Below are positions 3,246-31,055 of a stretch of 64,000 nucleotides of DNA, piece after piece. The DNA is from Syntrophomonas sp. Lineage in GTDB: Bacteria; Bacillota; Syntrophomonadia; Syntrophomonadales; Syntrophomonadaceae. Positions within the stretch are counted from its first letter, which is position 1. The number at the start of each line of letters is the position of its first letter. Where the stretch lies: assembly GCA_016841425.1 (NCBI GenBank), contig JAENZE010000012.1, forward strand, positions 1 to 64,000, given 5' to 3'. The position numbers and the translations under genes were made by a program. Below the pieces are notes generated by a model. The model did no database searches, was not told the DNA's origin, and saw nothing but the letters and a program-made list of their open reading frames with translations.

Positions 3246-3404
3246 AGGGGGGATGCTCCGTATTCAGGTCCGTTTGCAGCCGATCTCCATCGGGTGGAAT
3301 TACCCCTGCTTTTGAGATGACGCGTTATTTAGTGGTATGGAGTAATGCAGCTGTCCCTGAATTGTTTTACTCGCTGCACTTAACTTGAACATAGATCCTC
3401 CCCA
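3246..3404. repeat. Structured repeat family 1, copy A
   Basis: This element is collinear with 14734-14886. Shared blocks are CGTTTGC (3271), GGAATTACC (3296), CTCGCTGCACT (3370), CTTGAA (3384) and AGATCCTCCCC (3393), with nearly identical spacing to the other copy. The ends are partly complementary, so the element can fold back on itself. It may be a MITE-like repeat or a structured RNA. The rest of the 3208-3678 intergenic stretch holds only a possible broken reading frame at 3522-3662. Confidence 0.6.
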
Positions 3405-3521
3405 GGTGTTCTGAGTGGTTTTCAATAACACTTCTAGACGTCTTGTTTAAAAAGTCCAGGGTGCTTAACTTGCATTTGAGTTCGGTTATTAATACAATAT
3501 ACAGAAACAGGGGAGATATTA

Positions 3522-3662
3522 ATACCTGCCATCGAGCCTATTGCGTATTATGAAGTAAAGGGCAATCGGGTGTTGTCCACCAGATGTGGGGATATTCAGA
3601 CAATGAGTGCATTAGTAAAGGAAACAAGAGAACCGTCCCCTTGTTTGGTTTTGGCATATTAA
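3522..3662 (+). other. Possible remnant of a small coding region, no standard start
   Basis: An open frame of 46 codons encodes a protein-like sequence (PAIEPIAYYEVKGNRVL, then a Cys-Gly-Asp segment). It has no ATG, GTG or TTG at its 5' end, although GGGGAG precedes an ATA codon at 3522. Its last third overlaps an AACAAGAGAACCGTCCCC REP-like sequence around 3623-3648, which suggests the end of an older gene was replaced. It could equally be chance. Confidence 0.2.
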
Positions 3663-3678
3663 TTAGGAGGGAGCAAGG

Positions 3679-4104
3679 TTGGACTTAACAGAAATCATTA
3701 TTAGTAAAAGCGGTAAATGGTACTGGGGAACTGCAGAGATGTTTCGCAGAAACATTCTTAATATACTGGCAGCACATATTGAGAGAAATGATGACGGAAG
3801 TTTCTGCATAAAATTAGGCGATGACGTTAACCCCATAACCGTAGAAGATGTTCCTTTTCTGGCCAGCGGTTATGTACAGGAAGATGATGGCACCATTAAA
3901 CTGGTGTTTCATGATCTGCAGGAAATGATACTGGAACGAGAGCAGAAGATTTTCTTCAAGGGCGATGTACCGTATATTAGTTTCCGTTGGGAGGCAGATA
4001 CCAGGTTGAGCAGGGGCGTATACTGGAAGTTAAGCGATTTCTTCGATTTCCGAGGAGAAGAAGTCTATATATTGCCGCCTGAGGTTGCGGGAGGGGTCAA
4101 TTGA
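3679..4104 (+). CDS. DUF1285-like protein
   Basis: The start is the TTG at 3679, seven bases after AGGAGGG. The 141-residue product has the features I associate with DUF1285 proteins: an N-terminal GKWYW strand, FRRNILNIL, then ITVEDVPFL and a C-terminal beta-rich part. No catalytic residues are evident and it has no signal peptide, so it is probably cytosolic. No function is known. It appears to be a single-gene unit ending at the hairpin at 4266-4300. Confidence 0.55.
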   Translation: MDLTEIIISKSGKWYWGTAEMFRRNILNILAAHIERNDDGSFCIKLGDDVNPITVEDVPFLASGYVQEDDGTIKLVFHDLQEMILEREQKIFFKGDVPYISFRWEADTRLSRGVYWKLSDFFDFRGEEVYILPPEVAGGVN

Positions 4105-4265
4105 TTTCTGCAGAGGGAAATTAGCGGAGATAATAACAACAAGGAAAGGTCAGGTTGAGTGTAAGAGCTTAGAGCTCTTCTAAAGGGATATAAATCACAG
4201 TAATAATTGGGAGCAACTATAGGTGCCTGTGAAGGTGCTGAGGTGATAACAATAAATTGAAACCA

Positions 4266-4300
4266 AAAATCTCGAAAACGATCAGTTTTCGAGATTTTTT
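4266..4300. terminator. Bidirectional terminator between convergent genes
   Basis: Arms AAAATCTCGAAAAC (4266-4279) and GTTTTCGAGATTTT (4285-4298) flank a 5-nt loop, with T-runs on both strands. The hairpin lies between the DUF1285 gene and the radical SAM gene, which face each other. Confidence 0.85.
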
Positions 4301-4304
4301 GCCT

Positions 4305-5180
4305 CTATAATCTGGAAATATGTGGCGGACGAAAACAATCTGCTGGATAAGTTAGTAGTTGATCTAGTTCCTTTAACATTACTGCTTTGTCTCGAGGGAG
4401 GAGTCCATTAATATTACCGTAGTTAGCCATATGATCGCTTAACAGCATGCTGTTATCACATTCCAGGTTTTCTATTAATAGTCGGACTTCCTGTAAAGCC
4501 TGATGGGCAGTTAAAAGTTGAAAGGACCCATTCTGATAATCTTCATACAACGGAGTGCCCGGGTATGGAACTAGAGTTCTTATCCGAATAAAATTCGGGC
4601 TGAATTGGCTTAAGGTTTTTGCACTATTGATGGCATGTTCCCTGGTTCTTGCTAAACCGCCGATACCTGTGAGGTAATACTCACTTACCTGGATACCTGC
4701 TTCTTTAAGCTTGTTGCCTGCTGCAATTATTTCCTGGGAAGTAGTTCCCTTGCATACCTGGGCGAGTATAACATCATCTCCACTTTCCATACCGGTATGA
4801 ACCCGGCGCAATCCGGCCTGATAAAGACGCTTTAGATCCTCCAGACTCTTCTTGTTTACAAATCTGGAAGAACCGTATACAGTTATTCGGCTCAGATGGG
4901 GAAATAACTCCCCCGCATACTCAAATATTTCCACCAACTGGTTGGTTCGCATAAGTATGGTATTGCCATCGGGAAAGAATAGAGATTCGATGTATTCTCC
5001 ATAATAGTTGCGAGCTGCCAGAAGATCTTCTTTTATCTCTTCCACTGGTCTTATTCGGAATTTTACACCTTTATACATCTGACAAAATGTGCATTTATTA
5101 TGAGGGCAACCTATTGTGGCTTGAATTAATAGACTGCCTGCTTCACTGGGCGGACGGTATACAGTACCTTCATATCTCAT
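4305..5180 (-). CDS. Radical SAM protein (Elp3/HemN-like fold)
   Basis: The ATG follows AAAGGAGGTC. The 291-residue product carries an N-terminal cysteine motif CPHNKCTFC (C25, C30, C33), which is CX4CX2C rather than the textbook CX3CX2C. It also has a Gly-rich SAM-binding stretch and the GMESG segment typical of HemN/Elp3-type enzymes near residue 131. It should bind a [4Fe-4S] cluster and cleave S-adenosylmethionine. The substrate is unknown; there is no TRAM or B12 domain. It stands alone between a convergent and a divergent neighbour, so context gives no clue. Confidence 0.75.
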   Translation of the reverse strand: MRYEGTVYRPPSEAGSLLIQATIGCPHNKCTFCQMYKGVKFRIRPVEEIKEDLLAARNYYGEYIESLFFPDGNTILMRTNQLVEIFEYAGELFPHLSRITVYGSSRFVNKKSLEDLKRLYQAGLRRVHTGMESGDDVILAQVCKGTTSQEIIAAGNKLKEAGIQVSEYYLTGIGGLARTREHAINSAKTLSQFSPNFIRIRTLVPYPGTPLYEDYQNGSFQLLTAHQALQEVRLLIENLECDNSMLLSDHMANYGNINGLLPRDKAVMLKELDQLLTYPADCFRPPHISRL

Positions 5181-5326
5181 AAACTGACCTCCTTTAACAA
5201 TAAGATTAACAAATATGCCTGGTTTTTAAAAGATTGAAGTGCGGAAGCATAAAAAAATTGGTAGTTGTATTCTATCAGAGTAGAAGGTATATTTTAAAAT
5301 AGGGGAATGGTGAGGGGAGAAGTCAC

Positions 5327-6112
5327 ATGCCAGTTAGAGCACTAATAGTAGATGATGACCATAAAGAAAGAATTGTCTTAAGGTATCTGTTGGAACAATT
5401 TAAAGACGTAAAAATCATTGGAGAGGCAGTACACGGCCTGGAAGCCCTAATGTTCTGCCAGGAGAAAAAAGTGGATATTGTTTTTCTGGACATCACTATG
5501 CCAGAGATGGATGGAGTGGAAACTGCGGTTAAACTAATGGAAATGAAAGACCCGCCCTGGATAGCCTTTGTGACCGCCCAAACTGGTATGGCCGTCAATG
5601 CTTATGAACTGGGGGCACTTGACTACATTGTCAAGCCTATTGAACAAGGCCGGTTAAAAAAAACCATAGACAGGGTAAAAGAAAGAATAGCTCATCAGAA
5701 TGTGATCGATGAGATAGTTCAGCAAAGATTAAAAAACCGAATTGATTATATTATGTCTAAATATAATGAGGATGAAGTTCTGGTCAAAAGACTCCCAATC
5801 AGAGAAAAAGGCAAAATAACACTTATTAAGCATGAGGATATAATTGTTTGTGAAAGCCAGGGAAAAAAAGTATTCGTATTTACCAAAAAAGGAGGCTATC
5901 TTACCAATTATACGCTTAACCAACTAGAAAAACGTCTTGATGAAGCATATTTCTTCAGGGCTCATCAAGCTTACCTGGTTAACTTAAATTTTATTCAGGA
6001 AATAAAGAATTTTGGCGAAGGATCATACATATTGAGATTAGATATATGTCAACGGGATATTACCCTCAGCAGATCTAAGCTGCGTTTGTTAAGAGAAAAG
6101 ATGGCTATATGA
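5327..6112 (+). CDS. LytTR-family response regulator
   Basis: The ATG follows a GAGGGGAG ribosome site. Residues 1-120 form a CheY-like receiver with the acidic pocket D9-D11, phosphoacceptor D55 in FLDITMP, T83 and K103 (VKP). Residues about 150-258 form a LytTR DNA-binding domain with VCESQGKKVFVF, FRAHQAYLVNL and the C-terminal LSRSKL. Proteins of this AlgR/LytR type bind imperfect direct repeats upstream of their targets. No sensor kinase gene is adjacent, so it is an orphan regulator here. Its target may be the following AAA+/VWA pair, but nothing in the sequence proves it. Confidence 0.9.
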   Translation: MPVRALIVDDDHKERIVLRYLLEQFKDVKIIGEAVHGLEALMFCQEKKVDIVFLDITMPEMDGVETAVKLMEMKDPPWIAFVTAQTGMAVNAYELGALDYIVKPIEQGRLKKTIDRVKERIAHQNVIDEIVQQRLKNRIDYIMSKYNEDEVLVKRLPIREKGKITLIKHEDIIVCESQGKKVFVFTKKGGYLTNYTLNQLEKRLDEAYFFRAHQAYLVNLNFIQEIKNFGEGSYILRLDICQRDITLSRSKLRLLREKMAI

Positions 6113-6225
6113 CACATTAACCCATATATAAGACTGAATATCCCTAAAATAGTGCAAATAGCAGTAGAATTGAACACCTCGGATATGGAACCGGGTGCTT
6201 GAGAATACAGTTATATACGTGTAGA

Positions 6226-6258
6226 GGACAAGGTTCCAATGATACTTGTCCTAATTTT
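6226..6258 (+). terminator. Terminator downstream of the LytTR regulator gene
   Basis: GGACAAG (6226-6232) pairs with CTTGTCC (6245-6251), followed by TAATTTTTTT. It lies 113 bases after the stop codon. The rest of the 480-base gap up to 6593 shows no convincing gene. It has an AAGGAGGAG sequence at 6419 followed only by a five-codon frame. Confidence 0.65.
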
Positions 6259-6592
6259 TTTGCCCTAATTTCCTGCAAGCCATAAAACAGCTGTAGATTG
6301 TTATTTTTGCAACAAAGTATCCGGCATATAAAACCAAGTTTCGCTAAACTAGAGAAAAAAATCACAAAATGCTTTATAGTTAAAGTAACACTAAGGGGGA
6401 CGTTGAAGTTTAGCTGAAAGGAGGAGAAACTACTACATTGCAGTCGGGATATTGAACGGATAATTTTCGCCGACTATTATTAGAGTTAGAAAGTAATATA
6501 CGAATAATAATATAGATGGGTGCAATGTATCATAGTTCGGAAGCTCTGTTTTTAGAAAGTTGTGCGGCTAAGAAAAGATCGGAGTGATGCTA

Positions 6593-16952: not shown

Positions 16953-16979
16953 TAGATGACTGTGTTGGTAGATTGTGAT

Positions 16980-17002
16980 AGGACCTCAATGATAGAGGTC
17001 CT
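16980..17002 (+). terminator. Duplicated hairpin, copy 1 (after folD)
   Basis: AGGACCTC and AGAGGTCCT flank a short loop. The same 23 bases recur at 17153-17175 with one change, on the far side of the structured repeat at 17003-17124. No strong T-run follows this copy. Confidence 0.5.
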
Positions 17003-17124
17003 CAGGCCGATGAAGGGAGCGAATATCTGCGTTATTGCAAAAAGCCCGCTCAATCAACGTACTCCAGTACGCCTCAATCGCGGGCTTCTCTTATGCCTTG
17101 ATCTTCGCTTCCTTCATCGGCCTG
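17003..17124. repeat. Structured repeat family 2, copy 1
   Basis: Terminal arms at 17004-17023 and 17104-17123 are complementary in 19 of 20 positions. Nested inside is a hairpin with AAGCCCGC (17042-17049) and GCGGGCTT (17080-17087) and an inner GTACT/AGTAC. The central 90 bases match the reverse complement of 30876-30962 closely. The element is flanked by the 23-base duplicated hairpin (16980-17002 and 17153-17175). Confidence 0.7.
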
Positions 17125-17152
17125 GCATCTTGCCGACTTTGTCGACAAGCTG

Positions 17153-17175
17153 AGGACCTCAATAATAGAGGTCCT
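17153..17175 (+). terminator. Duplicated hairpin, copy 2
   Basis: AGGACCTC pairs with GAGGTCCT, followed by TTTATG. It is 22/23 identical to the copy at 16980-17002 and is the more likely functional terminator because of the T-run. Confidence 0.55.
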
Positions 17176-30802: not shown

Positions 30803-31027
30803 CCAGGCCGATGACATGAGACCCCTTCGGGGACTGCACTTGGAGCTCGCTGTGCTCGAACTAGTATAACAGTGAAGATCAAGGCATGAAAGAGCCCTTC
30901 GATTGAGGCGTACCTGAGTACGTTGATTGAGCGGGGCTTTTGAAATAACGCAGATATTCGTTTGCATTCATAGTGAGCCTTACACGAGCATACATTGTGA
31001 TCTTGTAAAGGACTTTTGTCATCGGTC
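30803..31027. repeat. Structured repeat family 2, copy 2 (reverse orientation)
   Basis: Terminal arms GGCCGATGAC (30806-30815) and GTCATCGGTC (31018-31027) pair in 9 of 10 positions. The core at 30876-30962 is the reverse complement of 17020-17110 with few differences. The outer arms differ in sequence between copies yet remain complementary. This copy is about 100 bases longer, with extra small hairpins such as CCCCTTCGGGG near 30822. Confidence 0.7.
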
Positions 31028-31030
31028 GGG

Positions 31031-31055
31031 GAAGCCTTAAGGGCTTCTTTTTTTA
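31031..31055 (+). terminator. Terminator after the DUF1292 gene and repeat
   Basis: GAAGCC (31031) TTAAG GGCTTC, followed by a run of seven T's. Confidence 0.8.

Follow-up and report, generated by a model that had tools for sequence, protein, structure and literature searches.

Group IIC introns insert at terminator hairpins, downstream of the stem-loop and without duplicating it. IS1272 and TnSha1, of the IS1182 family, target hairpins, often terminators, by structure rather than by sequence (PMC4923244, PMC5678879), and their published insertions are without target duplication (PMC4923244). Bacterial MITEs are short, non-coding, multicopy and intergenic, with terminal inverted repeats and target duplication (PMC10969869); REPs and REPINs, with their RAYTs, are folded palindromes that lie between genes in many copies and have unpaired bases that are conserved (PMC2817692, PMC3116915); and a subgroup of the IS1202 family makes unusually long target duplications of 16-28 bp (PMC10132070). 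In the open-access literature, we found IS1272-type work only and no published element that duplicates terminators. Here, we describe such an element in a 64,000-nt stretch of DNA from Syntrophomonas sp. (the window). It is a non-coding, MITE-like mobile element of ~150 nt, whose insertion leaves a whole stem-loop on each side.

The original prediction described positions 17003-17124 of the window as a near-perfect hairpin that encloses a core with a hairpin of its own. This hairpin is real: the outer stem (CAGGCCGATGAAGGGAGCGAA / TTCGCTTCCTTCATCGGCCTG) pairs with one mismatch, and the core inside it has its own hairpin. The extent of the feature was set too short, however; it continues through a second hairpin to 17152, and two copies of the folD terminator flank it. 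The outer stem is the terminal inverted repeat (CAGRCCGATGA/TCATCGGYCTG) of a mobile element with CAG...CTG ends that occupies 17003..17152 (150 nt, non-coding), with the minus strand as sense strand. On the sense strand, the right terminal inverted repeat reads TCATCGGCCTG (17003..17013) and the left, inner one CAGGCCGATGA (17114..17124), while 17125..17152 form the left-end hairpin (CAGCTTGTCGACAAAGTCGGCAAGATGC; 9-bp stem, AAA loop). This 28-nt hairpin is present on one end of the element only and adjoins the terminator in most copies. From aligned copies, the sense order is CAGnTTGTCGACAAAGTCGGCAAGATGC (the small hairpin), CAGRCCGATGAC, the core and GTCATCGGYCTG, for a total of 150 nt, which is also the modal length among 37 copies with clean duplications. 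Folded on the sense strand, the 150-nt unit reaches −78.5 kcal/mol (z −9.9) as RNA and −43.8 (z −8.7) as DNA, and in both cases, none of 200 shuffles folded as well. The sole open reading frame is a spurious 65-aa frame on the plus strand (16956..17153) that contains NICVIAKSPLNQRT and reads through the element; it is not a gene. As originally suspected, PLNQRT-type peptides are annotation artefacts produced by reading through the core, and the element accounts for a class of annotated spurious small proteins. In being short, non-coding and bounded by terminal inverted repeats, the element has the make-up of a MITE.

The element sits in Rho-independent terminators, and the whole stem-loop is directly repeated on both of its flanks. 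At folD, the duplicated hairpin is AGGACCTCAATRATAGAGGTCCT; the first copy of the terminator stem-loop (AGGACCTCAATGATAGAGGTCCT; 16980..17002, plus strand) is a 23-nt target duplication without the T-run, and the second copy (AGGACCTCAATAATAGAGGTCCT; 17153..17175, plus strand) is followed by TTTAT. The sequence of the flanking hairpin is locus-specific and differs at every locus. The 37 clean hairpin duplications are 16-34 nt long (median 23), with a length that follows the stem-loop; all pairs except one (36/37) are direct rather than inverted, and shuffled duplications folded as well as the real ones in 4 of 1850 cases. In four congeners, the intergenic region between folD and the metallo-hydrolase (MBL) gene contains a single terminator and no element. 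Similarly, upstream of aroE, a single hairpin is present in two congeners, whereas two hairpins and the element are found in G000 and G007; in G005, the element and the right hairpin are present, and the stretch read excludes the left flank. Because empty orthologous sites have one hairpin, the hairpin is what the element targeted and duplicated. The hairpins on both flanks of most copies might otherwise be taken for hypervariable ends of the element itself; given that the same hairpin is single at empty orthologous sites and that its sequence is locus-specific, we give this reading next to no credence, and at the two loci with empty orthologous sites, it is refuted. With dispersed copies that carry target-site duplications (37 clean cases, with empty sites at two loci), the element is a MITE in this respect as well.

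Of the 37 clean cases, 15 have a T-run only, to the right of the target, 8 have an A-run only, to its left, 5 have both and 9 have neither. The T-runs on the right and the A-runs on the left indicate that insertion occurs in either orientation with respect to transcription. Because nine of the 37 target hairpins are without an obvious T- or A-run, the target may be a "strong hairpin" rather than a "terminator". Other subfamilies (L015, L017 and L019), in which the core is kept between CAAAAAAGG...CCTTTTTTGACGGTCTG flanks and the ends are different, likewise have hairpin duplications. Approximately half of the copies scanned are without a clear duplication; these are mostly decayed, nested or at a contig edge. 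Among the matches listed for 1.36 Mb of DNA, hairpin duplicates at most 4 kb apart were few outside the element and belonged mostly to a CRISPR array and to short tandem repeats, and none was a larger element with a duplicated hairpin. At L222, L224, L229, L230, L231, L232, L238 and L243, a terminator is followed by the left-end hairpin alone; these loci seem to be either what a deletion left behind or a shorter version of the element. In two comparisons (L003/L147 versus L142, and L323 versus L324), the flanking hairpins agree within a genome, and the loop differs between species at the same locus. This suggests either gene conversion between the two hairpins or more than one insertion at the same terminator, and the element identities do not decide between the two.

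The window contains a second, decayed copy of the element on the plus strand (30804..31029), with inverted repeats that extend from 30804 (CAGGCCGATGA) to about 31029 (TCATCGGTCGG). That the core recurs in inverted orientation had been recognized from the start. In our alignment, 17020-17109 matches 30871-30960 over 90 nt at 87%. A covariance model confirms both cores and has exactly two matches within the window, at 17021..17106 (model R1; 96.3 bits) and 30874..30959 (86.8 bits). The outer stems of the two copies differ, which was previously read as a sign of selected structure; nested insertions and decay in the second copy, and not covariation of equivalent stems, account for most of this difference. 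Repeats are nested on both sides of the second core, and the inverted repeats lie further out because these other repeats separate them from the core. A terminator hairpin (GAAGCCTTAAGGGCTTC) with a T-run is located directly 3' of the second copy (31031..31047, plus strand), and no left hairpin duplicate survives. A second repeat family (GGACCACAATTTGGGCTCGCTGCGCTCGAAATAAT...) is nested in, or in tandem beside, the element at L018, L040, L155 and 30817-31013 of the window, and often enters the core stem at one fixed point (GGGCTT^). At 121-185, the window also contains a perfect inverted repeat of 31 nt around a 3-nt loop (AAGGTGCCAGGCACTAACTTATTAACTTATG), which has no relation to the element.

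The core (GAAGATCAAGGC-stem-GATTGAGGCGTAC-loop-GTACGTTGATTGA-stem-AACGCAGATATTC; 17021..17106, minus strand) is a structured module: its stems covary, and the GATTGA/GATTGA and CAAGGC/AACGCAG loops that they surround are conserved. In an alignment of 25 diverse cores with 29 named pairs, 91% of the cells are paired, compared with 34-43% if the partner is slid by 1-3 columns. Both sides change in 16 of the 29 pairs, and none of 500 shuffles reached the observed covariation values; the search pattern itself accounts for part of the invariance seen in the innermost helix. The proposal of a dispersed structured repeat with base-pair support, for which a covariance test had been set beforehand as a possible refutation, therefore withstood that test. 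On the sense strand, which bears GATTGAGGCGTAC, wobble G-U pairs are more frequent than A-C mismatches (36 versus 10), which points to selection for the fold of that strand, either as RNA or as single-stranded DNA. From their sequence, the two GATTGA segments can stack, with predicted tandem G-A, two T-T and again tandem G-A pairs. Rfam searches gave no relevant match in the window, at either the gathering or a lax threshold, or in nine related loci. The strong covariation, the strand preference and the conservation of the core module across many families would also fit a non-coding RNA or regulatory element that is primarily selected for a function beside terminators and whose spread as a repeat is a by-product. 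However, insertions at one intergenic region vary between species, mobility is shown by target duplications and tandem arrays, and there is neither an Rfam family nor a consistent neighbour gene; we therefore consider this explanation rather improbable and retain that of a mobile element.

A search of the own genome with the 122 bases gave 25 matches, corresponding to about 22 copies or fragments, and a pattern of the conserved centre identified 88 stretches in a species-level genome collection. The family anticipated in the original prediction is, therefore, real. Most of the 88 stretches are from Syntrophomonas and Syntrophomonadaceae, and the pattern was also found in Pelotomaculum, several Lachnospiraceae, a Blautia and one Desulfobacteraceae MAG. 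Using the covariance model, related cores were detected in 31 of 398 sampled genomes of the phylum and in 24 of 267 genera; in the weaker matches, the outer ends mostly differ. In some copies, other repeats are nested in the core or between the core and the ends. In Lachnospiraceae, two core modules in opposite orientation lie inside one element with TACCCTCAGTGG ends, at which no hairpin duplication is visible. Elements with other ends that contain a related core module were found in Desulfobacteraceae as well as in Lachnospiraceae. Given the other outer ends and the Lachnospiraceae arrangement, the core is a module that at least two kinds of miniature element share. In viral contigs, neither the core nor the Lachnospiraceae-type ends were found. 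At L110, a long CRISPR array (3270-6572; CGCTCCCGCACGGGGAGCG in the repeat) starts ~200 bases past a Lachnospiraceae copy of the core module, and a second copy of the module lies ~2.5 kb upstream.

The element-rich relatives G001 and G002 have units of element plus hairpin in tandem at a spacing of 173-193 bases. One such array (L245; G002:C9:73900-75900) consists of three full elements and a truncated one in tandem with a spacing of 182 bases and a long hairpin of about 32 nt between the units. In a distant member of the Bacillota (G336), L258 has tandem 142-nt units with the hairpin GGTACGCATGCAATGCGTACC around a related core. Because array-like tandem copies and duplication of a whole palindrome resemble CRISPR growth, a Cas1-type integrase, casposon- or CRISPR-like, could be imagined to insert the element and duplicate a palindromic "repeat". 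Cas1 is absent from the element-rich genomes G334, G312 and G023, and this idea, which we regard as exceedingly unlikely, is effectively refuted by these three genomes unless the gene was recently lost.

We consider it probable that the ~150-nt, MITE-like element targets the stem-loops of terminators or other strong hairpins and duplicates them by means of a transposase acting in trans, with joining at a cruciform. The transposase would recognize the element ends together with the folded core, either single-stranded or as a cruciform, and would link both 3' ends of the element with the 5' feet of a target stem-loop extruded as a cruciform. Because the cut sites would be adjacent in the cruciform and a hairpin's length apart in the sequence, gap repair would copy the entire hairpin. 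If the 3' ends of a transposon attack the 5' feet of both arms of a cruciform, the expected product is just such a duplicated hairpin, variable in length and with the cuts precisely at its two feet. The same geometry is drawn as "pathway b" in a published model figure, as a hypothetical alternative for IS1272 that was not seen there (PMC5678879); we infer that a putative trans-acting enzyme uses this route here. Unequal recombination, or a further insertion into either of the duplicated hairpins, could then give rise to the tandem arrays.

For the origin of the transposase, 35 left-end stretches, nearly all from the two richest genomes, contained no coding element that could be an autonomous partner. 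One candidate is a transposase of the IS1182 family, which includes the hairpin-targeting IS1272, in a variant that duplicates the stem-loop rather than replacing it. The IS1182-family domain PF13751 is present in all five element-rich genomes first tested, IS1272 itself targets terminators (PMC4923244, PMC5678879), and some IS1182-like ends (CAGRCTGTGTGAAAAC) resemble the element ends CAGRCCG..., with a similarity limited to CAGRCYG. However, the IS1182-like copies examined are replacement-type insertions in hairpin arms without duplication or have ~4-7 bp duplications without a hairpin, and PF13751 is absent from G377, G351, G329 and G035 despite their core matches and present in the element-free G046 and G163, making this candidate unlikely, although it deserves consideration. 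At L180 and L286, in Syntrophomonadaceae and another Bacillota genome, IS1182-like elements lie inside hairpin arms, as IS1272 does in staphylococci. A second candidate is a Y1 (HUH) transposase that moves a folded single strand, as for REPINs. The hairpin form of the element, the conservation of its unpaired loops and its strand asymmetry would suit such an enzyme, and G000, G005 and G007 have 7-9 Y1_Tnp genes; however, there is no Y1_Tnp match in G023 (11 core matches) or G351 (4 core matches), and the element does not flank any of the nine Y1 genes read in the own genome. Moreover, no target duplications are known from HUH Y1 enzymes, which counts further against this candidate, and we judge it very unlikely.

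The tandem-GA hairpin module, i.e., the core with its GATTGA/GATTGA and CAAGGC/AACGCAG loops, is common to several otherwise unrelated miniature elements in the Bacillota and one Desulfobacteraceae genome. Tentatively, we suggest that this module could be the recognition structure of an uncharacterized transposase, which in the Syntrophomonadales would integrate at cruciform junctions and duplicate the whole palindrome. Because the whole stem-loop is duplicated on each side, the host gene keeps a working-looking terminator. Terminators may, thus, be a safe landing site, with intact gene ends that would allow harmless multiplication between genes. The element ends, the target hairpins and the empty and filled sites provide ready substrates for finding the enzyme. 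Altogether, the original interpretation is partly supported; it missed that the element is mobile and that, on entering a terminator, it duplicated the entire hairpin.

Among the known systems, group IIC introns are ribozymes of different structure, while the element has no Rfam match. The element shares folding, intergenic location, conserved unpaired bases and high copy number with REPs and REPINs; in contrast to these, it is not beside Y1 genes, has target duplications and occurs in genomes without Y1_Tnp, and no GTAG-type tag was noticed by eye. It resembles the long-duplication subgroup of the IS1202 family in the length of its target duplications, but IS1202 ends are 5'-TGT...ACA-3' rather than CAG...CTG, and a hairpin or terminator target is not reported for IS1202 (PMC10132070). 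Compared with other bacterial MITEs, with which it shares all the features listed at the outset, what it duplicates is a complete hairpin that is specific to the locus and varies in length (16-34 nt), it has an extra 28-nt hairpin at one end only, and no parent IS was found among the 35 left-end stretches. Finally, the element is like IS1272 and TnSha1 in its choice of hairpins by structure; however, it is a 150-nt, non-coding element with other ends, and while IS1272 replaces or partly deletes the stem-loop, the element duplicates it whole. It would, thus, offer a natural example, with many cases, of a transposition route that was drawn but not observed for IS1272 (PMC5678879).
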